This document shows, piece after piece, positions 9,685 through 23,165 of a stretch of DNA of 29,751 nt. Each line of letters starts with the position of its first letter. Position 1 is the first letter of the stretch. The position numbers and the translations under genes were made by a program. The stretch spans positions 1 through 29,751 of IMG/VR virus record IMGVR_UViG_3300032053_000363; one strand, 5' to 3'. Below the pieces are notes generated by a model. It saw nothing but the letters and a program-made list of their open reading frames with translations, searched no databases and was not told the DNA's origin. Origin of the DNA: a virus.

Positions 9685-9912
9685 ATGGTTGACAAACAGC
9701 CACAGCATTGGGATTCGCAGTTAGCGGCGATCCGCGCCCAATTATACCGGATCGATCAGGCCATTCGCGGCGATGGTGAGAAGAGCCCGGGGCTGTGCAT
9801 GCGTATGGATAGGCTGGAGCGGTGTGAGGCTGTCCGGGGCCGGATCATGTGGGCGACCGCAATGGGCGTACTCATGCTGCTTCTCAACCGGTTCTGGTCA
9901 TTTCTGAGTTAA
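9685..9912 (+). CDS. Small coiled-coil protein with C-terminal membrane helix
   Basis: The protein has 75 residues. The N-terminal about 50 are charged and helical with heptad-like spacing (QLAAIRAQLYRIDQAI ... MDRLERCEAVRGR). Residues about 53-72 form a single hydrophobic helix (IMWATAMGVLMLLLNRF) that ends at the C-terminus. This is the layout of XhlA-like membrane proteins and some small holins, so a lysis role is possible. I cannot exclude a virion component, because the gene sits between connector and tail-terminator genes. The sequence alone does not decide. Confidence 0.65.
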   Translation: MVDKQPQHWDSQLAAIRAQLYRIDQAIRGDGEKSPGLCMRMDRLERCEAVRGRIMWATAMGVLMLLLNRFWSFLS

Positions 9913-10818: not shown

Positions 10819-11259
10819 ATGACCACAGCGATATGCAAGCTGGGTCGCAATGCCAAGTTGTACTACGGCCCGGAAGATACGGCTCTAGGTTCGCTGAGCC
10901 TGTGTGGAAACGTGCGCGACCTGGAGATCAACACGACCGCCAAGGAGGCCGACACCACAACGCGCGACTCCGGGGGCTGGACTTCCTCTGCCGTGGTGAG
11001 TCGGGAAATCACAATCACGTTTGAGATGCTCTGTCTCGACGACGATGACGGCTACGATGCTATGGAAGATGCCTGGCTGAACGGGACGTTTCTCAGTCTA
11101 GCCGCCTTGAGCGGTGCACGGGACGTATCCGGCAGCCGTGGCCCATACGGCAACTTCAGCATTACCGACTTCACGGTGAAAGAACCGCTGGAAGAGGCCA
11201 GTACAGTGAGTGTCACGGCGAAAGTCGCCGCGTTTGATAGCTGGGTCAAGGTCACCTAA
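10819..11259 (+). CDS. Major tail tube protein
   Basis: The protein has 146 residues behind a clear AAGGAG site, as expected for a highly made virion protein. The sequence is beta-rich: GRNAKLYYG, a strand around VRDLEINTTAKEADTTTRDSGGW, VVSREITITFEML, a helix with DDGYDAMEDAWLNG, and VSVTAKVAAFDSW at the end. The TTRDSGGW and ITITFEM blocks match the TP901-1-like phage major tail protein pattern. Polymers of it form the tail tube. No contractile sheath gene is present, so the tail should be long and non-contractile. Confidence 0.83.
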   Translation: MTTAICKLGRNAKLYYGPEDTALGSLSLCGNVRDLEINTTAKEADTTTRDSGGWTSSAVVSREITITFEMLCLDDDDGYDAMEDAWLNGTFLSLAALSGARDVSGSRGPYGNFSITDFTVKEPLEEASTVSVTAKVAAFDSWVKVT

Positions 11260-11275: not shown

Positions 11276-13744
11276 ATGGCTTTCTACTTTGCTGGCAACG
11301 AAGCGAACGCGGAGCGGGTGTCCTACGGCAACGGCGTACCGCTGCTTGTCAATCAGATGAACTCCAGCATCTCCGGCTGGTTCAAGTTCGACGCTGGTGC
11401 TCTAACGAAGGACCGCTACCTGCTGGGAATCTGGCGCACGCAAGGGGGCGATCCAGAGTATGGACTAGGCCTGTTCTATGACCACTCCATCACGCCGGGA
11501 TCGATTGAAAAGCGCCTGCGCGTATACATGAGGGGTGCCGTCCCCGGCACCGGCGACGCTTACAGCAATCAAGAAATCACCGCCAACGTCTGGCATCACG
11601 TTCTCATCACGTTCACCAGTGCCGCGCCATGTCGGATTGGGCTCTATGTAGATGGAGTGGCCAAGGGCGGCACCACCGCCAATATGGCGGTGGCCGGGTG
11701 GCCGGACTTCGGTCCAAACGCCCTGACCTACGGATGGATTTATGGATTCGCGACCGCTCCGACGAAAGGCTATGAGGCCCACTGGTGTATTTGGAACACC
11801 GATCTAGGCGGCGGCCCGGCCCCGAATGGCACCGCTCTAGCCTACGCCCAAGCGATCTACGCGGGCGGCGATCCGGAATTGATCGAGCCCACACACCTGG
11901 TGCATTCCACGGCCGGTGAAAGCGAGGCCGATCCGGGCTACAACAGAATGGCTCTGCCGGCCATGATGCTCCCCGAAGTGCATGCCTGCCTGATGACCGC
12001 CGCGGATAATCCAGAGGCGGCCTTCACGCACGACGTCGACACGGCCATTGTCGTTATGTCGCCCGATGAACAGGGCTACACGCCCAACGCAAGCCGGTTC
12101 ACAACCTACTGCCTACCCATCGCCACCTGGGCGGCGGCGCAGATTGTGCCGAACAAGATCAAGGCCGTCGTGCACATGGGTGATGGCGTGAGCGACTGCA
12201 CGGTCTCAGCGGAGTGGGACCGCTACGAGGCCCTTATCGCCGCAACGGAGGACGTACTACCCACGGCCATTCTGCCGGGCAACCATGACTGGCCTCTAAA
12301 TGGGGGCGTGCGCCGGCCCAAGACGGCTTACGATGGCCGGTTCCCGGCTTCACGCTGGAGTGGCGAGACGTGGTGGGTGGATTCCTACCCCGCGGGCACC
12401 TGCCATAATATGGCGGTCGGCTTCACGGCGTGTGGTTTGACGTGGATCATCCTCACCCTGGAGTTTGGGGCCGACGACGGGGCCATAGCCTGGGCCAAGG
12501 CCCTGATGGAGGCCAATCCGCGCGTATGGTTTATAGTCGCCACTCACACGCTGCTAGAGGGCCAGGTAGGCCTGACCGCCGACGGCGACGTTCCGTTCCG
12601 TGACGATGCGGCGCTAGGCACCGACGCTGGCGTAGGGCCACCGAGCTATTGGGGATTCACCGAGGAGAACAGCAACACCGGCGCGGCCATATTCCTCAAG
12701 TTGCTGCGCAGTGCAATAAATGTGGCACTGGCGTTGGGCTCTCACATCTACGGAGCGCACAGCATCGCGGATGGGTGGAACCACTACGGTCAGTCGTACA
12801 GGCGCATCCTAAACCGTCGCGGCGGGATCATCCACGCCATACACGCGAACTATCAGGAGGGAACCGACGGCACGGGCAACGGCGGTGCTGGATTCGTGCG
12901 TCTCCTACAGTTTCGCCCCGGCGAAGGCCGCATTCAAGTTACCGCATGGACGCCGGTCGCTCGGAACTACTCCCACTACCGGTTCTACGATTACGTCACC
13001 GCGGGCGATGGCCCTGGAGGCCAGCGCACGGTCAATCCCAGCCTCTTAGAGACTATCTCCCTACCGTTCAACTTCCGTGCCCCGCGCGGCCCGGACGTGG
13101 ATGGGCTTCCTTCGGAGGGCAACTATATGGCTCCACAGACCGCAATACAGCAAGCGACAATGTCGATCGGCGGCATGAGCGTGCCGTCGCTGACTGTCAG
13201 AACCGGAGAGGCACATATCGGCGTGAAACCGGCACTCCCAGCCGGCGTCGCCGGCGCCATCGATGACGGTGGGGGCGTCGACGGGCTGCCTACCGGACAT
13301 GGTTTCGAGGCCGCGGACGTGGTTGGCGTGCATTGGATCGACGCGGACGGGATAGCTCGGTGCCGGCGCGATCTCATCGTCGATACCGCCGGTGCTAGCG
13401 GAATCACCTTCGAGGTTGGCGGCGCCGGTGATGCCCTACCGGTGGAGGATACCGCCGTGGTGGTGGGCATGCAGGTTGACATTACCATGTTGTTTCCGGG
13501 ACCGGACGTGCTCATGTTCACAGCCCGTGCGGATCAACAGTGTGCCGTCGATTTTCAAGCCACGGGCAGCGTCTCGATCGCCGCCCGTGCCATACCGGCC
13601 CTGGAGGGCTGGAACTGGGCCATAAACAACGGATGGACGAACCCGTTGGACGATGACATCGTGAAGGTCATAGCGAGCAACGGCGGCAGCGCCGAGGCAT
13701 CGCTTTATTTGGGCGTGCTCTACGACGCAGTGGGAGGCATTTAA
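11276..13744 (+). CDS. LamG / metallophosphoesterase multi-domain virion protein
   Basis: The protein has 822 residues. Residues about 1-200 look like a concanavalin/LamG beta-sandwich (SISGWFKFDAG, VWHHVLITFTSAAPCRIGLYVDG), a carbohydrate-binding fold. Residues about 255-530 carry calcineurin-like phosphoesterase motifs in order: DEQ at 264-266 (DxQ instead of DxH), GDGVSD at 302-307, GNHD at 335-338, His 424, and GSH-IYGAH at 488-495 in the GHxH position. The C-terminal about 220 residues are a beta-rich domain with no assignment by me. It overlaps the next gene by one base. It sits between tail tube and chaperone genes, so it is probably a tail-side protein; no signal peptide is seen. Hydrolysis of a surface phosphodiester polymer is inference. 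Confidence 0.82.
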   Translation: MAFYFAGNEANAERVSYGNGVPLLVNQMNSSISGWFKFDAGALTKDRYLLGIWRTQGGDPEYGLGLFYDHSITPGSIEKRLRVYMRGAVPGTGDAYSNQEITANVWHHVLITFTSAAPCRIGLYVDGVAKGGTTANMAVAGWPDFGPNALTYGWIYGFATAPTKGYEAHWCIWNTDLGGGPAPNGTALAYAQAIYAGGDPELIEPTHLVHSTAGESEADPGYNRMALPAMMLPEVHACLMTAADNPEAAFTHDVDTAIVVMSPDEQGYTPNASRFTTYCLPIATWAAAQIVPNKIKAVVHMGDGVSDCTVSAEWDRYEALIAATEDVLPTAILPGNHDWPLNGGVRRPKTAYDGRFPASRWSGETWWVDSYPAGTCHNMAVGFTACGLTWIILTLEFGADDGAIAWAKALMEANPRVWFIVATHTLLEGQVGLTADGDVPFRDDAALGTDAGVGPPSYWGFTEENSNTGAAIFLKLLRSAINVALALGSHIYGAHSIADGWNHYGQSYRRILNRRGGIIHAIHANYQEGTDGTGNGGAGFVRLLQFRPGEGRIQVTAWTPVARNYSHYRFYDYVTAGDGPGGQRTVNPSLLETISLPFNFRAPRGPDVDGLPSEGNYMAPQTAIQQATMSIGGMSVPSLTVRTGEAHIGVKPALPAGVAGAIDDGGGVDGLPTGHGFEAADVVGVHWIDADGIARCRRDLIVDTAGASGITFEVGGAGDALPVEDTAVVVGMQVDITMLFPGPDVLMFTARADQQCAVDFQATGSVSIAARAIPALEGWNWAINNGWTNPLDDDIVKVIASNGGSAEASLYLGVLYDAVGGI

Positions 13745-14595
13745 TGACGATCTTCCTGACTCTCTTGACCCTGGTCTGCGCCGCGGCACGGCCACAACCG
13801 GTGATCTATGGGCATCTGGACCGGCTGAGTGAGAACATGGCCCAGGTATCCCTCAGCATGAGCTGGCTTCCCCGGCCCTATTGGGCTCGCATCTACCCCG
13901 AAATCCGTCTGTCGCTCAGGGCCAGGCCGCTGGTGCCGTTGACCGTCACGCCGGGTCCGGCACTGGCGGCCACCACCATAGAGGAGACGGAGGAAGGTGT
14001 GCTGATCCGGGTTACGGTTCTACGCGACGGCTACCCCCCGCCCGGATGGCTGGGCATCCTCTGCACCGGTCCGCCGGTGCCGTTGCTTACGGTGGTGCCA
14101 GGTGGTGCCACAACTCTGACGCTCGACGATGGATTTGTGCGCCTATCGCCCTATCATCCGGTCAACCACTACTCGGGCTGCTACGCCGCCCCCCAGGTGT
14201 TCACCGAATCCGGGGCATGCTGTGATGGGGGTACGTGTCTGAAGATGGATGACTACTCATGCAGCGAGCGGCCCTTCGGCCAATGGTGTGGAGCGGGTAC
14301 AACATGCGAGGACGTTGAGTGCCCGGCCCCGCGCTATGGTGCCTGCTGCGATGCCGATGGTAGCTGCCGGGATGGGGTAGCTGAGCCGGAGTGTATGTTC
14401 ACGGCTGATGCCGCCTTCTGGCCCGCGACGGCCTGCGGCGACCTCTCATGTGACCCACTAGGCTCATGCTGGTTCGACGAGCAAGGGGTTCTCTGCTGGT
14501 CTGACTGCCTTAAATCGGTTTGCGATACATGGTGTGCATGGCGTGGCTCGGGTGAGTGGCGTCCGGAGCGGGAATGCCCGCGGCATGACGACTAA
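13744..14595 (+). CDS. Secreted cysteine-rich repeat protein, planctomycete style
   Basis: The protein has 283 residues. Residues 1-15 read as a short signal peptide (MTIFLTLLTLVCAAA). Residues about 20-150 are a beta-rich Pro-rich domain. Then come Cys-rich repeats: 157-195 (GACCDGGTC ... CSERPFGQWCG..TTCEDVEC) and 199-238 (GACCDADGSC ... C...WPATACGDLSC), and a more degenerate third unit at 239-278. The GACC..G.C....C..W.G..C....C repeat is one I know from secreted planctomycete proteins, so it looks host-derived. Its ATG overlaps the previous stop (TAATG), so it is co-translated with the phosphoesterase-like protein. A role at the cell surface or on the tail is inference. Confidence 0.75.
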   Translation: MTIFLTLLTLVCAAARPQPVIYGHLDRLSENMAQVSLSMSWLPRPYWARIYPEIRLSLRARPLVPLTVTPGPALAATTIEETEEGVLIRVTVLRDGYPPPGWLGILCTGPPVPLLTVVPGGATTLTLDDGFVRLSPYHPVNHYSGCYAAPQVFTESGACCDGGTCLKMDDYSCSERPFGQWCGAGTTCEDVECPAPRYGACCDADGSCRDGVAEPECMFTADAAFWPATACGDLSCDPLGSCWFDEQGVLCWSDCLKSVCDTWCAWRGSGEWRPERECPRHDD

Positions 14596-14652
14596 GGTGT
14601 GCTCGTGACCTCGAGGATCGGATGATGACCCACGTGTATCGGAGACGTGACG

Positions 14653-14976
14653 GTGAAGAACAAAATGGCAAGTGTACTGGTAACGGCGATGGTGGCTTTG
14701 ATGATCGCGGTGTTTCCCGGCTGCAAGTCGCCGGACAGAACAGAGGCGTGGCTGAACGGCCTGGAACGTATGCACGCCGAAGGGGACATGATCCTGGTAG
14801 GCAAACCCACAGCCGCGTTCTTCTGGAATCAACAGTGGGGGCTCGGCGCTGCCGAAACGACATTTGCTTTTCACGGGCGCCTCAACGCCAATCCCCAAGC
14901 GGCGGACATATTGCGAGAGCAGGTAGCTGCACGGGAATTGACGGTCCCCGCGCCCGCCTTGCCGCTCACGCCTTAA
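14653..14976 (+). CDS. Small lipoprotein
   Basis: The protein has 107 residues. The start at GTG 14653 is chosen because GGAG (14641-14644) lies eight bases upstream; GTG 14647 is too close to it. The N-terminus is a classic lipoprotein signal: MKNK, a hydrophobic stretch, and the lipobox FPGC with Cys 24. The mature part is about 84 residues and contains AFFWNQQWGLGAAETTFAF. It should be anchored in the outer membrane of a diderm host. The gene that follows overlaps its end in another frame. It may be an outer-membrane lysis or superinfection-exclusion lipoprotein; the sequence does not decide. Confidence 0.7.
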   Translation: MKNKMASVLVTAMVALMIAVFPGCKSPDRTEAWLNGLERMHAEGDMILVGKPTAAFFWNQQWGLGAAETTFAFHGRLNANPQAADILREQVAARELTVPAPALPLTP

Positions 14977-15371
14977 CGGCGATCCTGCTCTGTCTGCCGG
15001 GTTGCGCCGCGGGCAACCGGGTATCGCTGGCTGACTCGCTGGCGGTGGAGAACGGTCATCTCACGGTTGCCCTGGCCGCCCTGGAGCGAGTCCAGGTCGA
15101 CGTCGCCGGGATCAAGGCCCAGTTGGGCGGTGAGATGACGGTATCCGGCGGTCGTGCCACACAGGCCCTGGCCGCCGTGGAGAATCTCCAGGCCGACATA
15201 GCCGGGATCAAAACGCAGGTGGGTGGTGGGGGCGACTCCGTCACGGCGTGGATATATGCTGCCATTGGCGGATCGAACGTCATCACGGCTGCCATTTACC
15301 CATTGCTCATTCGCCCATTACGCAAACGACGGGAATCACACACGCGAATACGCCCCGACCATCCGCCGTAA
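14937..15371 (+). CDS. Candidate unimolecular spanin (lipobox plus C-terminal TM)
   Basis: The frame encodes a second lipoprotein signal (RARLAAHALTAILLCLPGC), then a helical periplasmic part with two near copies of a 26-residue unit (VALAALERVQVDVAGIKAQLGG and QALAAVENLQADIAGIKTQVGG). A C-terminal hydrophobic helix follows (about VTAWIYAAIGG...IYPLLI) and ends in RPLRKRR. An N-terminal lipid anchor plus a C-terminal membrane helix with a positive tail is the layout of the u-spanin of phage T1 (gp11), which fuses inner and outer membranes at lysis. No ATG/GTG/TTG lies at a sensible place. ATT 14937 is given as a provisional start; GTG 14835 would add a long leader. A frameshift from the upstream lipoprotein is another option. 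Confidence 0.58.
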   Translation: MDGPRARLAAHALTAILLCLPGCAAGNRVSLADSLAVENGHLTVALAALERVQVDVAGIKAQLGGEMTVSGGRATQALAAVENLQADIAGIKTQVGGGGDSVTAWIYAAIGGSNVITAAIYPLLIRPLRKRRESHTRIRPDHPP

Positions 15372-15405
15372 GGGCGCACAAACGACGTACTTCCGTGCAG
15401 GGGAT

Positions 15406-15435
15406 GGCGCTCCTCAAAGCGCTTTGGGGAGCGCC
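15406..15435. repeat. 30-base near-perfect palindrome before the tail chaperones
   Basis: GGCGCTCC (15406-15413) pairs with GGAGCGCC (15428-15435). Inside, CAAAGC|GCTTTG is a perfect palindrome, and the remaining T/G position can wobble, so a 15-pair stem is possible. It lies in the 192-base gap between the spanin candidate and chaperone G. It shares the AAAGCGCTTT core with the hairpins at 4547 and 22350. The rest of this gap shows no gene I trust. Confidence 0.75.
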
Positions 15436-15563
15436 AATTGAAAATGATCCTAAGCCCGTGGCGCTAGATTCCCGCCCGCTGGTCCAAACGGTCCACCCTG
15501 AGCCGGTCCGTGCCGGGAAGAGTCGATTCCGCCAGAGGGTGGACACAACATGAGAGGTCTAAC

Positions 15564-16034
15564 ATGGCGTGCTTCAAAGATTCAACCGGGCGATCTTGGC
15601 CGCTGCGATTGGATGTGGCCGCCGCCCGCCGCGTGCAGGACAGGCTGGGCGTGAACTTGCTGGCGCCGGAGGACGGCGATCCGCCTCTCCACGCGCGGCT
15701 GGTGACCGACGACATGCTCCTAGCCCAAGTCATCGCGGTCATTCTTGAACCACAGTTCGCCGTGATGCCGGAGCCGACTGACCCGTACACGATTTTCGAT
15801 GGGGTGAGCTTGGCGGCTGCCGAGGATGCGTGGTGGCAGGAGTACGCGGATTTTTTCCAGAGGCGCCCGGACCGGGCGATGCTGATCCGAAAGGGGACGG
15901 AGCGCATGGCAACCTGGATCCAGGAGGGCGTCAAGCTGATGAACGAACAGAAGGATCCGGCACTGCCGGTCGTGGACTCTCTGACTCCGGACGCCCCGGA
16001 CCCTGGAGTGGATGGGAACAGGTCTACGCCCTAG
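15564..16034 (+). CDS. Tail assembly chaperone G
   Basis: The protein has 156 residues from ATG 15564, preceded by GAGAGG. It begins FKDSTGRSWPLRLDVAAARRVQDRLGVNLL, a pattern I associate with the short tail chaperones that lie just upstream of the tape measure gene. These proteins coat the tape measure during tail assembly and are absent from the mature tail. The gene is followed in the -1 frame by a conserved extension (see the next entry), exactly as in lambda G and T. The C-terminal about 40 residues are acidic and Pro-rich. Confidence 0.78.
   Translation: MACFKDSTGRSWPLRLDVAAARRVQDRLGVNLLAPEDGDPPLHARLVTDDMLLAQVIAVILEPQFAVMPEPTDPYTIFDGVSLAAAEDAWWQEYADFFQRRPDRAMLIRKGTERMATWIQEGVKLMNEQKDPALPVVDSLTPDAPDPGVDGNRSTP
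15851..15896 (+). promoter_or_regulatory. Candidate -1 frameshift heptamers in chaperone G
   Basis: Two X-XXY-YYZ heptamers lie in the correct zero frame of G: T-TTT-TTC at 15851-15857 (codons TTT TTC after GAT) and A-AAG-GGG at 15890-15896 (codons AAG GGG after CGA). A -1 slip at either enters the frame that is open through the T segment to 16270. The second allows perfect re-pairing of both tRNAs. Which is used cannot be told from sequence alone. Confidence 0.55.
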
Positions 16035-16270
16035 CCGGATTGGTCGGCGTGGACCCGGCGGCCTTCACGGTGCGAGAGCTGGTTTGGATGCAGCGTGCTC
16101 GGTCGCGCGAAACGTGGATGCAGTGCGGTGTGATAGCCTCGGTGGTGGCCAACACTCGCATGGGGGCTTCCGGCAGAACCTACACGCCGGCAGACTTCAT
16201 GCCCCAGGTCTACAGCCCGAAACCGGCCCATATGGATATCCGCGATTTGGAGCACAAGTTGGGGGTCTGA
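15851..16270 (+). CDS. T segment of the G-T tail chaperone (-1 frame)
   Basis: The -1 frame relative to G holds a clear protein from about 16013: WEQVYALAGLVGVD, FTVRELVWM, a variable part, then ANTRMGASGRTYTPADFMPQV. It resembles the second tail chaperone of planctomycete and related phages (LAG..GVDP..LTLREL ... PADFNP). No ATG or GTG precedes its conserved beginning; the first normal starts (TTG 16040, GTG 16049) would cut into it. So it is most simply made as a G-T fusion by frameshifting. The frame upstream of 16013 is open but Gly/Asp-rich and would be a linker. The tape measure GTG lies four bases after its stop. Confidence 0.68.
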   Translation, partial: FFPEAPGPGDADPKGDGAHGNLDPGGRQADERTEGSGTAGRGLSDSGRPGPWSGWEQVYALAGLVGVDPAAFTVRELVWMQRARSRETWMQCGVIASVVANTRMGASGRTYTPADFMPQVYSPKPAHMDIRDLEHKLGV

Positions 16271-16273
16271 CGA

Positions 16274-18301
16274 GTGGCAAGCGACACGCGAATTGGGCGA
16301 GCTTTCGTCGAACTATTCGCCGACGGCAGGCAATTGACCCGCGGCCTAGCAAAGGCCAAGAGTCAATTCACCACCTGGAGCCGGAGCCTCACCCGCATAG
16401 GCACGTGGAGCATGGGGATAGGGACCGGCATTCTCACGCCCCTGCTGGCCGCCAGCAAACTGTTCGCCCGCACGGGCGATGCCATCGCCGAGATGGCGCA
16501 GCGGACGGGAATGAGCACCGAAGCCCTGAGTGAGTTGGGTCACGCGGCCAAGCTGGTCGGTATGGACGCCGAGACTCTCGAGGGCGGAATCCGCCGGATG
16601 CAAGCCTCCATAATCGCTGCCGGCGGTAAAGGTGCCAAGCGTAACCTTCTCCGCGACCTGGGCGTTGACGTGCGGAGACTCACTTCGCTCAAGCCTGAAG
16701 AGCAGTTGAACAAAATGGCCGATGCCTTGTCGGGCATCGCCGATCCGACAAAGCGTGCTGCCGCGGCGATGAAAATCTTCGGTCGCGGCGGGACCGCCAT
16801 GCTTCCCCTGCTGGCCGGGGGAACCCAAGGACTTGCACGCCGGCGCAGCGCAGCCGCCGCCGTGGGGGCCACCGTAACCGCGGGGGAGGCGGCAGCTGCC
16901 AGTGCCTACGCCGATATGCTCGACGATCTCAGCACCGGTCTACAATCGCTGGCTCGGGCGATTGGTGAAGCCGTGGCGCCGGTGGCCACGCGCTTGGCAA
17001 AGATCGTGACCGATAATGTGCTTACCGCCCGTGCTTGGATTCAGAGTCACGCCGATCTGATACGACTGACCATGCGCGCGGCCGTAGCCATGCTGGCCGG
17101 CGGAGCTGCCTGCATTGCCCTGGGAGGAGCACTCAAGGTGGCGGCGGTTGGCTGCGGGATTCTCAAGATTGTCCTCGGTACTCTCCTGAGTCCTATTGGA
17201 CTGACAACCGTTGCCCTGGCCGGAATCGGCTACGCCCTGGCCCGCCACACGGATAAAGGCCGAGAGATGGTTGAAGGCTTGGGTCAACGACTGCGCGGGC
17301 TGGGGGAGGATGCCCGCCTGGGTATGAGTGCTATAGTTGTGGCACTCAAGGCCGGTAATCTAAACGCGGCGTGGGACATCGTGGCCGCCTATGCGGCGGT
17401 TGTCTGGGAGCGGATAGGAGGGAGCGCGGCCGATTCACTTGCCAACATGGCCGCCGATGTGCAGGGGCGGTTTCAGAACGTGTGGGACAACCTGCGGGCG
17501 GGGTGGGAGGACTTGATCGACTGGGTGATGGTCTCCTGGAAAGTGGCCTGCGATAGTATGGCGACGCGACTGGAGAAGCTGCGGGACACTCTGGCGGTCC
17601 TAGCCGGCGGCATGAGCCAGGCTGTGGGGGCCGCAGTCAAGAGCATGACCAGCAGCGTTGCCAACAACTATAGGCGCGAAGGGCATCCGGGAGCCTACAG
17701 TCCGGGACACCTGCTGTTTGGCCGTCTTCCCGGAGGACAGATGAGCATAGGGCCGGACGCGGCTATTGGGGCGGCACAGACTGGCTTGGGCAGTGTACTC
17801 AATTGGCTTTGGCCGAAGGGCAAAACTGCGGCTCAGAAACGAGACTGGTATGCCTCCGCCCGGCAGGAACATGAGGCGAAGATGGCCGAGATAGGGGCGG
17901 CCAGTCTGGCACGCGAGGAAGCCCGCGCGGCCGAACGCCTGCGGCGCTCCAATGCCCGAGCCCATGAATTGTACAATGCAGAGGAGGCCTACCGCGCGGC
18001 GCTCAAGCGGGCGACGCATGATATGAGTCCCCTCCGACCCGAAGAGGGGCCGCCGCCGAAGGATTGGTCCATACTCTATACCTATGAGCCGCCCGCCGGC
18101 AAGGCTTTAGAAGTACCGGGCATGGAAGCGACAAAGCGGGAACTGAGCGTGGTTGGCACTTTCAACCCTCGAGTCATGGGCATGCTGGCCGGGGGAGCGG
18201 CGCAGGAACGAGCTGCCCGCGCTGCAGAGGAAACGGCACGCAACACGGGTCAACTGGTGAATCAAGGCCGTAGGAACCGCCGTGGTAACACCTTCGGCTA
18301 A
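16274..18301 (+). CDS. Tape measure protein
   Basis: The protein has 675 residues from GTG 16274. It sits inside the tail tube and sets tail length. The N-terminus (GRAFVELFADGRQLTRGLAKAKSQ) and the block QRTGMSTEALSELGHAAKLVGMDAETLEGGI are typical of phage tape measures, as is a central hydrophobic region (about 265-323) with several potential membrane-spanning stretches used at DNA entry. The C-terminal third is charged, helical and Ala/Arg/Glu-rich. By the usual rule of about 0.15 nm per residue the tail would be near 100 nm, but that is a rough estimate. It follows the chaperones as expected. Confidence 0.9.
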   Translation: MASDTRIGRAFVELFADGRQLTRGLAKAKSQFTTWSRSLTRIGTWSMGIGTGILTPLLAASKLFARTGDAIAEMAQRTGMSTEALSELGHAAKLVGMDAETLEGGIRRMQASIIAAGGKGAKRNLLRDLGVDVRRLTSLKPEEQLNKMADALSGIADPTKRAAAAMKIFGRGGTAMLPLLAGGTQGLARRRSAAAAVGATVTAGEAAAASAYADMLDDLSTGLQSLARAIGEAVAPVATRLAKIVTDNVLTARAWIQSHADLIRLTMRAAVAMLAGGAACIALGGALKVAAVGCGILKIVLGTLLSPIGLTTVALAGIGYALARHTDKGREMVEGLGQRLRGLGEDARLGMSAIVVALKAGNLNAAWDIVAAYAAVVWERIGGSAADSLANMAADVQGRFQNVWDNLRAGWEDLIDWVMVSWKVACDSMATRLEKLRDTLAVLAGGMSQAVGAAVKSMTSSVANNYRREGHPGAYSPGHLLFGRLPGGQMSIGPDAAIGAAQTGLGSVLNWLWPKGKTAAQKRDWYASARQEHEAKMAEIGAASLAREEARAAERLRRSNARAHELYNAEEAYRAALKRATHDMSPLRPEEGPPPKDWSILYTYEPPAGKALEVPGMEATKRELSVVGTFNPRVMGMLAGGAAQERAARAAEETARNTGQLVNQGRRNRRGNTFG

Positions 18302-21771: not shown

Positions 21772-21789
21772 CCGGCTGGAGGTAGGAGC

Positions 21790-22332
21790 GTGGTATCAAT
21801 TCCTCGGGGCTTTCAACCTATCGCACCGCGGTCCTTCGACCTGCCACGGCGGCAACCTTTGCAAGCGCCGTTGCCCACGCCCTACCGCCCGCAAGCGCGA
21901 GGATCCCCGACCGGCGGGCATGTACCGGCATCGCCCCAACCGCCCGCGGACCCAGGCCTGCCGGCGGACGTCGCTCTTATCCTGCGCGCCGGAGCACGCT
22001 ATCGATCGCTCATTCACAAGTGTGCCCTGGCGTGCTGGTCGGTTCCCGCCTACCCGGACCGGTGGTATGCCTGGGCGCGCCTGCGATTGTGGCCGCGGGC
22101 TCGATCATTCTTCAGGGCGTGGGCCGGGCGACGGGTGCCACCGTCCGAGCTGGAGGCACGAATGGCGAGCTGTTCGAGCTGCCGATCCCGCCGCCTGGTG
22201 CACGCGCGCGACTACTGCACAGCCCGTAGTTGTGGATGCCCACAGGCGTGGTGGTGGCCCTGGGCCACTCTGTCCAAGATGGCGCGGCTACGCGCGGTAC
22301 GGTGCCCCCGCCAACTCTGGCCCCACGGCTAA
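21790..22332 (+). CDS. Cys-rich putative zinc-binding protein at end of the late block
   Basis: The protein has 180 residues from GTG 21790; GGAGG at 21778-21782 lies seven bases upstream. The first 60 residues are Pro/Arg-rich and look disordered. The C-terminal part has a metal-site-like pattern: C128xxC131, then C143, C148 and C150, a Trp-rich helix and a last C172 (RCPRQLW). I associate the order CxxC ... YC..CGC....W....L..K...A...CP..W with small late proteins of planctomycete prophages. It may fold around zinc or an Fe-S cluster. Overlapping longer frames in this stretch lack these patterns and were not chosen. Confidence 0.62.
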   Translation: MVSIPRGFQPIAPRSFDLPRRQPLQAPLPTPYRPQARGSPTGGHVPASPQPPADPGLPADVALILRAGARYRSLIHKCALACWSVPAYPDRWYAWARLRLWPRARSFFRAWAGRRVPPSELEARMASCSSCRSRRLVHARDYCTARSCGCPQAWWWPWATLSKMARLRAVRCPRQLWPHG

Positions 22333-22349
22333 GACTCCTGCGCACGCGA

Positions 22350-22367
22350 AGCGCTTTGAAAAGCGCT
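22350..22367. repeat. AGCGCTTT palindrome downstream of the late block
   Basis: AGCGCTTT-GA-AAAGCGCT is a perfect inverted repeat with an 8-base arm. It begins 18 bases after the stop of the Cys-rich protein, so it may help end or stabilise late transcripts. It has no T-tract. Confidence 0.7.
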
Positions 22368-22581
22368 CGGCAAACGCCGCCGCCTGCCCGCAGATGGATG
22401 ATCGGGCCGGATGATCTTCCCGGCCACCCCGGCCCCAATGCGTGGCAGGACGGGCGGCTTCCGCCAGCGGGCGGATACCTGCCGACGCTCCACCAGCGGC
22501 CAGGCCGGGGAGCTGCTCACCGCCGCCATAGCAGATTCGTGTCATTTCGCCAAATCCCGCCCTCAGACGCCATGTGCCACG

Positions 22582-22606
22582 TGGTAGGCCGTTGTTTAGC
22601 CTACCA
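22582..22606. repeat. Inverted repeat upstream of the early promoter
   Basis: TGGTAGGC and GCCTACCA form a perfect 8-base inverted repeat around a 9-base spacer (CGTTGTTTA). It could be an operator for a dimeric regulator or an RNA hairpin. It lies about 40 bases upstream of the -35 box. Confidence 0.6.
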
Positions 22607-22630
22607 GAATGCAAACAGGGTGAATGCAAA
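22607..22630. repeat. GAATGCAAA direct repeat
   Basis: GAATGCAAA occurs at 22607-22615 and 22622-22630, 15 bases apart, in the AT-rich stretch just before the promoter. Two copies could bind an activator or an initiator protein; two are too few to call an origin. Confidence 0.55.
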
Positions 22631-22647
22631 ATGTATACAGATTTTGT

Positions 22648-22675
22648 TTGACATGTTGCCGCCATGTGGTATGAT
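22648..22675 (+). promoter_or_regulatory. Strong sigma70-type early promoter
   Basis: TTGACA at 22648-22653 and TATGAT at 22670-22675 are separated by 16 bases, with an extended -10 TG at 22667-22668. The -35 matches consensus fully and the -10 in five of six positions. ACATG...CATGT forms an inverted repeat overlapping the -35 and spacer, a natural operator position. Transcription would start near 22682 and enter the 22750 gene. Confidence 0.75.
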
Positions 22676-22749
22676 TCAACTGCCGGTGGACACCCCGCCG
22701 GAGCCCGCCAGCCGGGCTTACGGCTGGAGCGAAAAACGGAGACAAAAAG

Positions 22750-22977
22750 ATGACGGACCGAATTATCGACGGGCAAAACCACGACGACCGGGCCTTCGCC
22801 CAGATGATGCGCAATCTTGCCAGCCCGCAGCCGGCGCGGACGGGACGGCTCGTAAAAAGCAAACGTGGATCTTGGGGACGAATCTTGCAGACCGGCTACC
22901 GTGCCGGCTGCGTCGGCGCGATCAGTCGCGCGGAATGCCTGGAACTTGGCCTCACGCCCGGCCCTGCGAACTATTGA
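22750..22977 (+). CDS. First early gene, small unknown protein
   Basis: The protein has 75 residues, with its ATG following GGAGACAAAAAG. It lies about 70 bases after the predicted start of the strong promoter, so it should be among the first and most abundant early products. It is polar and basic in the middle (TGRLVKSKRGSWGRI), with a possible helix-turn-helix-like end (AGCVGAISRAECLELGLTPG). I do not recognise a family. Small first genes of this sort are often host-takeover, anti-defence or regulatory proteins; here that is only a guess from position. Confidence 0.6.
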   Translation: MTDRIIDGQNHDDRAFAQMMRNLASPQPARTGRLVKSKRGSWGRILQTGYRAGCVGAISRAECLELGLTPGPANY

Positions 22978-22980
22978 ATT

Positions 22981-23003
22981 GGCGAGAGGCTGGTGATCTC
23001 GCC
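22981..23003. repeat. Hairpin after the first early gene
   Basis: GGCGAGA and TCTCGCC form a perfect 7-base stem around a 9-base loop, four bases after the stop codon at 22975-22977. There is no T-tract. It may be a weak terminator or an mRNA 3' stabiliser that sets the first gene apart from the rest. The gap continues to 23165 with no other gene I trust. Confidence 0.5.
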
Positions 23004-23165
23004 TGCCGACGAGCGAGGGAAGCGTGGCGGCATCGAAGTGGGCGGCGGTCAAGGTAAAAACCGTGATGCGTAGCTACCTCCGTATGGGGCCGGGCCTGGG
23101 CAACGGCGCGGTTGCCCCCCGGCCCCTCGCTGGTTCTACACTGCGGCGGGGTGGAGATGATGACG

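Follow-up and report, generated by a model that had tools for sequence, protein, structure and literature searches.

A candidate unimolecular-spanin-like protein with an internal duplication in the tail module of a probable planctomycete virus

The window, i.e. the whole stretch of DNA that was analysed, corresponds to an entire IMG/VR virus record (29,751 bases), in which a lambda-type portal, a GpA-type terminase, a capsid and a cement gene were recognized by family and profile matches. The tail module comprises the major tail protein gene (MTP, at 10819), a pair of tail assembly chaperone genes (TAC, at 15510 and 15830) and the tape measure gene (TMP, at 16274); four genes are located between MTP and TAC, the last of them being the frame considered here (Table 1). 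The neighbors of this frame are tail genes and form no recognizable lysis cassette; indeed, the PHROG and Pfam searches revealed no holin, endolysin or other lysis-family match in the window. The two TAC frames (15510-16270) overlap in −1 register, probably representing the programmed frameshift common in siphophages, and both were matched in about 60 related loci. Counterparts of the LamG-phosphoesterase gene in the loci L022, L099, L104 and L140 consist of a match of about 200 residues only, likewise between MTP and TAC, and the neighboring Cys-rich gene exhibited no host link among 59 genomes. Elsewhere in the window, a 75-residue protein with a coiled-coil-like N-terminus and a C-terminal membrane segment (9685-9912), possibly a holin or XhlA-like protein, adjoins the head-tail joining gene and is kept in 23 relatives. 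The tail module is separated from a DNA methylase gene by a region of about 1.3 kb (21772-23111) in which coding potential is low.

Table 1. Genes and sequence features around the candidate frame in the window.
Feature	Position	Strand	Description
LamG-phosphoesterase gene	11276-13744		LamG (PF13385) and calcineurin-like phosphoesterase (PF00149); 822 aa; tail module
Cys-rich protein gene with signal	13744-14595		
Upstream overlapping lipoprotein gene	14647-14976	+	109 aa; lipobox FPGC; no membrane segment; Pro-rich C-terminus VPAPALPLTP
Shine-Dalgarno-like AGGTAG	14921-14926	+	10 nt before ATT 14937
Candidate u-spanin-like gene	14937-15371	+	144 aa; ATT start; open frame; codon log-likelihood ratio +36.8 bits; sole architecture match in window
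Lipoprotein signal	14937-15005	+	predicted from sequence; n-region DGPRAR; h-region LAAHALTAILLCL; lipobox LPGC
Repeat copy 1, predicted helix	15053-15132	+	core ALAALERVQVDVAGIKAQLGG; helix 31-66 in low-confidence AlphaFold2 model
Repeat copy 2, predicted helix	15149-15228	+	core ALAAVENLQADIAGIKTQVGG; helix 73-96 in low-confidence AlphaFold2 model
C-terminal membrane segment (predicted)	15240-15311	+	VTAWIYAAIGGSNVITAAIYPLLI; residues 102-125
Basic stop-transfer tail	15312-15332	+	RPLRKRR; from sequence
Hairpin 3' of candidate gene	15405-15436	+	near-perfect; 16-nt arms, 94% complementary

The frame 14937-15371 is real. Scored with a codon model derived from the unambiguous genes of the window, it was strongly positive (Table 1; +34.6 bits for the part beyond the overlap with the preceding gene alone), the other two frames reaching −55 and −68 bits. 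The preceding lipoprotein gene, which the preliminary description of this DNA had missed, is coding as well (+27.7 bits), and the codon preference switches from the one frame to the other inside the 40-nt overlap. Upstream of 14937, the reading frame of the candidate scores −14.8 bits; the 249-residue open reading frame from ATG 14622 was therefore rejected as an artefact with a non-coding N-terminal extension. The only plausible start codons that retain the signal peptide are ATT 14937 and, less well, ATT 14910, the former being most likely the start of the gene: the anti-Shine-Dalgarno duplex over the 22 nt upstream of it (−6.4 kcal/mol) is within the range of the neighboring genes and represents a fair match. 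An unusual start or a frameshift had both been considered initially; the unusual start is the more likely, whereas a programmed frameshift from the upstream lipoprotein gene was dropped, as the ATT start with its Shine-Dalgarno match explains the frame, visual inspection of the overlap revealed no slippery heptamer, and the candidate frame opens with its own complete signal.

The candidate protein reads IDGPRARLAAHALTAILLCLPGC, about 78 residues, VTAWIYAAIGGSNVITAAIYPLLI, and then RPLRKRR, so that the lipobox, the C-terminal hydrophobic segment and the basic end are present as described previously. The Cys predicted to be acylated is Cys23 (15003-15005). With Pro at position −2 the lipobox departs from the consensus [LVI][ASTVI][GAS]C, from which some spanins in the catalogue differ too (LNGC, FVGC, AWAC; PMC6139136). 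The hydrophobicity of residues 102-125 is no more than moderate (KD19 1.42; Wimley-White octanol −3.7 kcal/mol); together with the basic end, this segment corresponds by sequence to the C-terminal transmembrane domain and cytoplasmic tail of a unimolecular spanin (u-spanin). The predicted periplasmic domain (residues 24-101) contains no Cys, as is the case for all u-spanins catalogued (periplasmic Cys in 0 of 58; PMC6139136). Judged from these sequence features, anchoring of the protein at both ends appears quite probable. A six-frame scan for this architecture (a lipobox with hydrophobic core, a mature length of 45-220 residues, a C-terminal membrane segment and a basic tail) returned one match in the window and none in 100 Markov-2 simulated windows, and the two matches in 395 kb of planctomycete DNA were both evidently polytopic membrane proteins.

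The internal duplication was confirmed: the two 80-nt copies are 75% identical, 96 nt apart and in frame. Within the 63-nt repeat core, 50 of 63 positions match and 14 of 21 residues are identical, the next best pair of 63-mers at that range in the window matching at 37 of 63. Hydrophobic residues recur in both copies at 3-4-3-4 spacing (L/V5, V/L8, V/I12, I15 and L/V19 of the core), and each copy is trailed by a Gly-rich stretch. The single-sequence AlphaFold2 model of the protein is all-helical at low confidence (mean pLDDT 54).

Searches of viral contigs, of the 50,697 phage records of INPHARED (by tblastn), of 46 related records and of 392 Planctomycetota genomes yielded no homologue of the candidate, and the protein matched no PHROG, no Pfam and no spanin family. 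T1-like phages are to be expected within INPHARED. The strongest match among the Planctomycetota genomes (L173; E 8.6e-5) was taken as chance, since it is interrupted by stops and runs antisense to a long coding frame; the match in L165 is an antisense frame too. Since neither homologue nor family match was detectable, relatives were compared by position instead. The portal has relatives in 160 loci, and those derived from genomes belong mostly to Planctomycetota; the diderm host proposed initially is thus likely a planctomycete, as far as the portal relatives indicate. Restriction and defence genes (ABC-3C, SAVED, type I and ISP restriction) were encountered beyond the tail modules in L174-L181.

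The comparison set consisted of 57 portal-anchored loci that contain both MTP and TMP, mostly planctomycete prophages. According to the architecture scan, a dual-anchor lipoprotein is encoded in the MTP-to-TMP stretch of 15 of them (98 kb scanned), compared with four plus-strand matches in 2073 kb elsewhere; the enrichment is about 80-fold (odds ratio about 79), and its p-value should not be read literally, the loci being mutually related. Two of the four outside matches (L033, L129) are members of Group B, as defined below, from loci in which no TMP was detected downstream. The 15 proteins fall into three mutually unrelated families, Group A (n = 7), Group B (n = 7) and that of L076, and the window protein constitutes a fourth, unrelated to them in sequence. 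Homologous frames with the same two anchors were not found in related planctomycete prophages, some of which encode unrelated dual-anchor lipoproteins in the same stretch. The distance from the mature Cys to the membrane segment is 59-95 residues in the relatives, periplasmic Cys is absent from 13 of 15, and basic tails occur throughout. The positions relative to TAC differ: the window gene precedes it, following MTP, whereas the genes of the relatives come after it and before TMP. Several further arrangements were observed in the related loci. The Group A gene of one planctomycete prophage is apparently broken by a frame change (L140:18981-19512), and in two MTP-to-TMP stretches a small lipoprotein and a separate multi-membrane-segment protein replace the dual-anchor protein (L008:17557-18554, L049:18121-19266). 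In L082 and L138, another lipoprotein that ends in a hydrophobic segment is encoded upstream of the terminase. Small membrane proteins, which may be holin-like, lie beside lipoproteins in the MTP-to-TMP stretch of L035, L060, L068 and L089; no endolysin was recognized downstream in seven relatives among the 25 families listed.

In six of the 15 relatives, all of Group A, the dual-anchor gene overlaps a preceding lipoprotein gene by 4 nt (GTGA or TTGA, the GTG or TTG start lying on the stop of the upstream gene); in L145 its start comes one base past that stop. The window pair has the same order as Group A, but with a 40-nt overlap. No homologue of the upstream gene 14647-14976 was found, and homology of the pair to that of the relatives, suggested by eye, gave an hhalign signal not above shuffled controls; the likeness is therefore one of shared arrangement rather than shown descent. 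Such tandem genes raise the question of a two-component complex, in which 14647-14976 would encode the o-spanin-like outer-membrane partner and the candidate would be the inner-membrane partner held by its C-terminal segment, its lipobox being unused or secondary. The gene overlap, the tandem order shared with Group A, the Pro-rich tail of the putative partner and the Rz-like plan of two periplasmic helices would all suit this arrangement. However, the transmembrane domain of i-spanins is N-terminal rather than C-terminal, and two-component spanins ubiquitously possess periplasmic Cys (PMC6139136), which neither mature window protein contains beyond the acylated residue; in addition, the architecture listing shows no partner of this kind for Group B relatives. 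On balance, the two-component complex seems rather improbable.

Only 5 nt separate the dual-anchor gene from the next tail gene in L109 and L023, which places the former in the late operon. This tight packing, like the 4-nt overlaps of Group A, is what would be expected of a late function and was counted in favor of a spanin. It also bears on the main rival explanation, a superinfection-exclusion moron, i.e. an envelope lipoprotein made by the prophage, perhaps together with its lipoprotein neighbor, that blocks phage DNA injection by way of the tape measure protein. Known injection blockers include the predicted inner membrane protein gp15 of HK97 and the lipoprotein Ltp of TP-J34, with escape mapping to the tape measure gene (PMC10883804). 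The candidate is a lineage-specific orphan near the TMP gene, and a strong hairpin (−27.7 kcal/mol, z −3.8) lies between the window pair and the TAC gene, as might be the case for a self-contained moron. Yet this terminator-like hairpin has no T-run, a sigma-70-type promoter match was not found, and the dual-anchor genes of the relatives are packed in the late operon, with no hairpin found after them. Moreover, an exclusion lipoprotein needs no second anchor, and the dual anchor nevertheless recurs in unrelated families. We consider an exclusion function unlikely, if somewhat less so than the two-component complex.

The lipid anchor, the membrane segment and a suitably long span devoid of Cys, together with the repeated appearance of this layout in unrelated families, point to a protein selected to bridge the periplasm; among phage proteins, it is this layout that defines unimolecular spanins (PMC6139136). 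A part in the envelope or the virion as a tail accessory protein, with no role in lysis, would agree with the cassette between MTP and TAC that the candidate shares with the LamG-phosphoesterase and Cys-rich genes; a cleavable lipoprotein signal plus membrane segment would be odd in a virion component, though, and the recurring dual anchor would be left unexplained, so that this is the least probable of the alternatives. Our main reading is a unimolecular-spanin-like protein, to which, including the lysis function, we assign a probability of roughly one half. Counting against a spanin are the missing holin and endolysin matches, the moderate membrane segment, Pro at −2, the ATT start and the predicted helical rather than beta-rich fold, as well as the missing homologue and the different position and lack of profile similarity relative to the genes of the relatives.

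As a unimolecular spanin, the protein would be lipid-anchored in the outer membrane through Cys23 and held in the inner membrane by residues 102-125, with RPLRKRR in the cytoplasm; the span between the anchors would consist of the two duplicated helices with their heptad-like spacing and Gly-rich hinges. After removal of the peptidoglycan mesh by an endolysin, the dual-anchor molecules might cluster and the helices pair or fold back at the hinges, whereby both membranes would be drawn together and fused; we infer this placement, oligomerization, fusion and lysis from the predicted architecture. A broader proposal is that planctomycete siphophages carry several independently evolved tail-module u-spanins, that of the window being helical, duplicated, Rz-like and class-I-fusogen-like, unlike the beta-rich T1 type; we put it forward tentatively, as an idea with less than even chances.

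The dual-anchor proteins that recur in one defined part of the tail module would provide concrete candidates for the breach of the outer membrane of Planctomycetota, whose viruses may have their own kind of membrane-bridging lysis protein. The u-spanins, which the preliminary description took to be known mainly from proteobacterial phages, are not restricted to these: according to a survey of 2025, every spanin type occurs in Pseudomonadota phages and u-spanins are the only type used by Bacteroidetes phages, planctomycetes being unmentioned (PMC12596118). In the open-licence literature, we found no report of planctomycete prophage spanins or of outer-membrane breach by Planctomycetota phages; both the tail-module setting and the host phylum would accordingly appear to be without an earlier report for u-spanins. 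It has been proposed that two-component fusogens are helical and one-component fusogens beta-rich (PMC6139136); a helical u-spanin, if true, would contradict this division.

Among known systems, the T1 gp11 family shares with the candidate the build as a single protein with an N-terminal lipoprotein signal (predicted for the candidate), a C-terminal transmembrane domain and a Cys-free periplasmic domain (PMC6139136). The dual-anchor layout claimed in the preliminary description is retained and the assignment to the T1 type is not. The candidate is outside this family: no sequence similarity was found, the periplasmic domain is beta-rich in the T1 family and predicted to be helical here, the short helix followed by at least four beta strands is not seen in the low-confidence model (pLDDT 54), and the candidate has no recognizable lysis cassette and a probable planctomycete host. 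With the i-spanin Rz of lambda it would share two helical, coiled-coil-like periplasmic stretches joined by a flexible linker, and according to the model its helix-hinge-helix domain may be closer in plan to Rz than to T1 gp11; Rz, in contrast, has only an N-terminal transmembrane domain and needs Rz1, where the candidate combines an N-terminal lipid with a C-terminal membrane segment. TP-J34 Ltp and HK97 gp15 are likewise phage-encoded envelope proteins with a tape-measure link (PMC10883804), but the host in which Ltp acts is Gram-positive, gp15 belongs to the inner membrane, and anchoring in two membranes is described for neither. The proteins of Groups A and B (e.g. L109:18077-18439 and L102:16611-17072) resemble the candidate in lipobox, periplasmic span, C-terminal membrane segment, basic tail and location in the MTP-to-TMP stretch, and Group A also in the overlapping upstream lipoprotein gene; they differ from it in having no detectable similarity, a position between TAC and TMP, GTG, TTG or ATG starts and no duplication noted.
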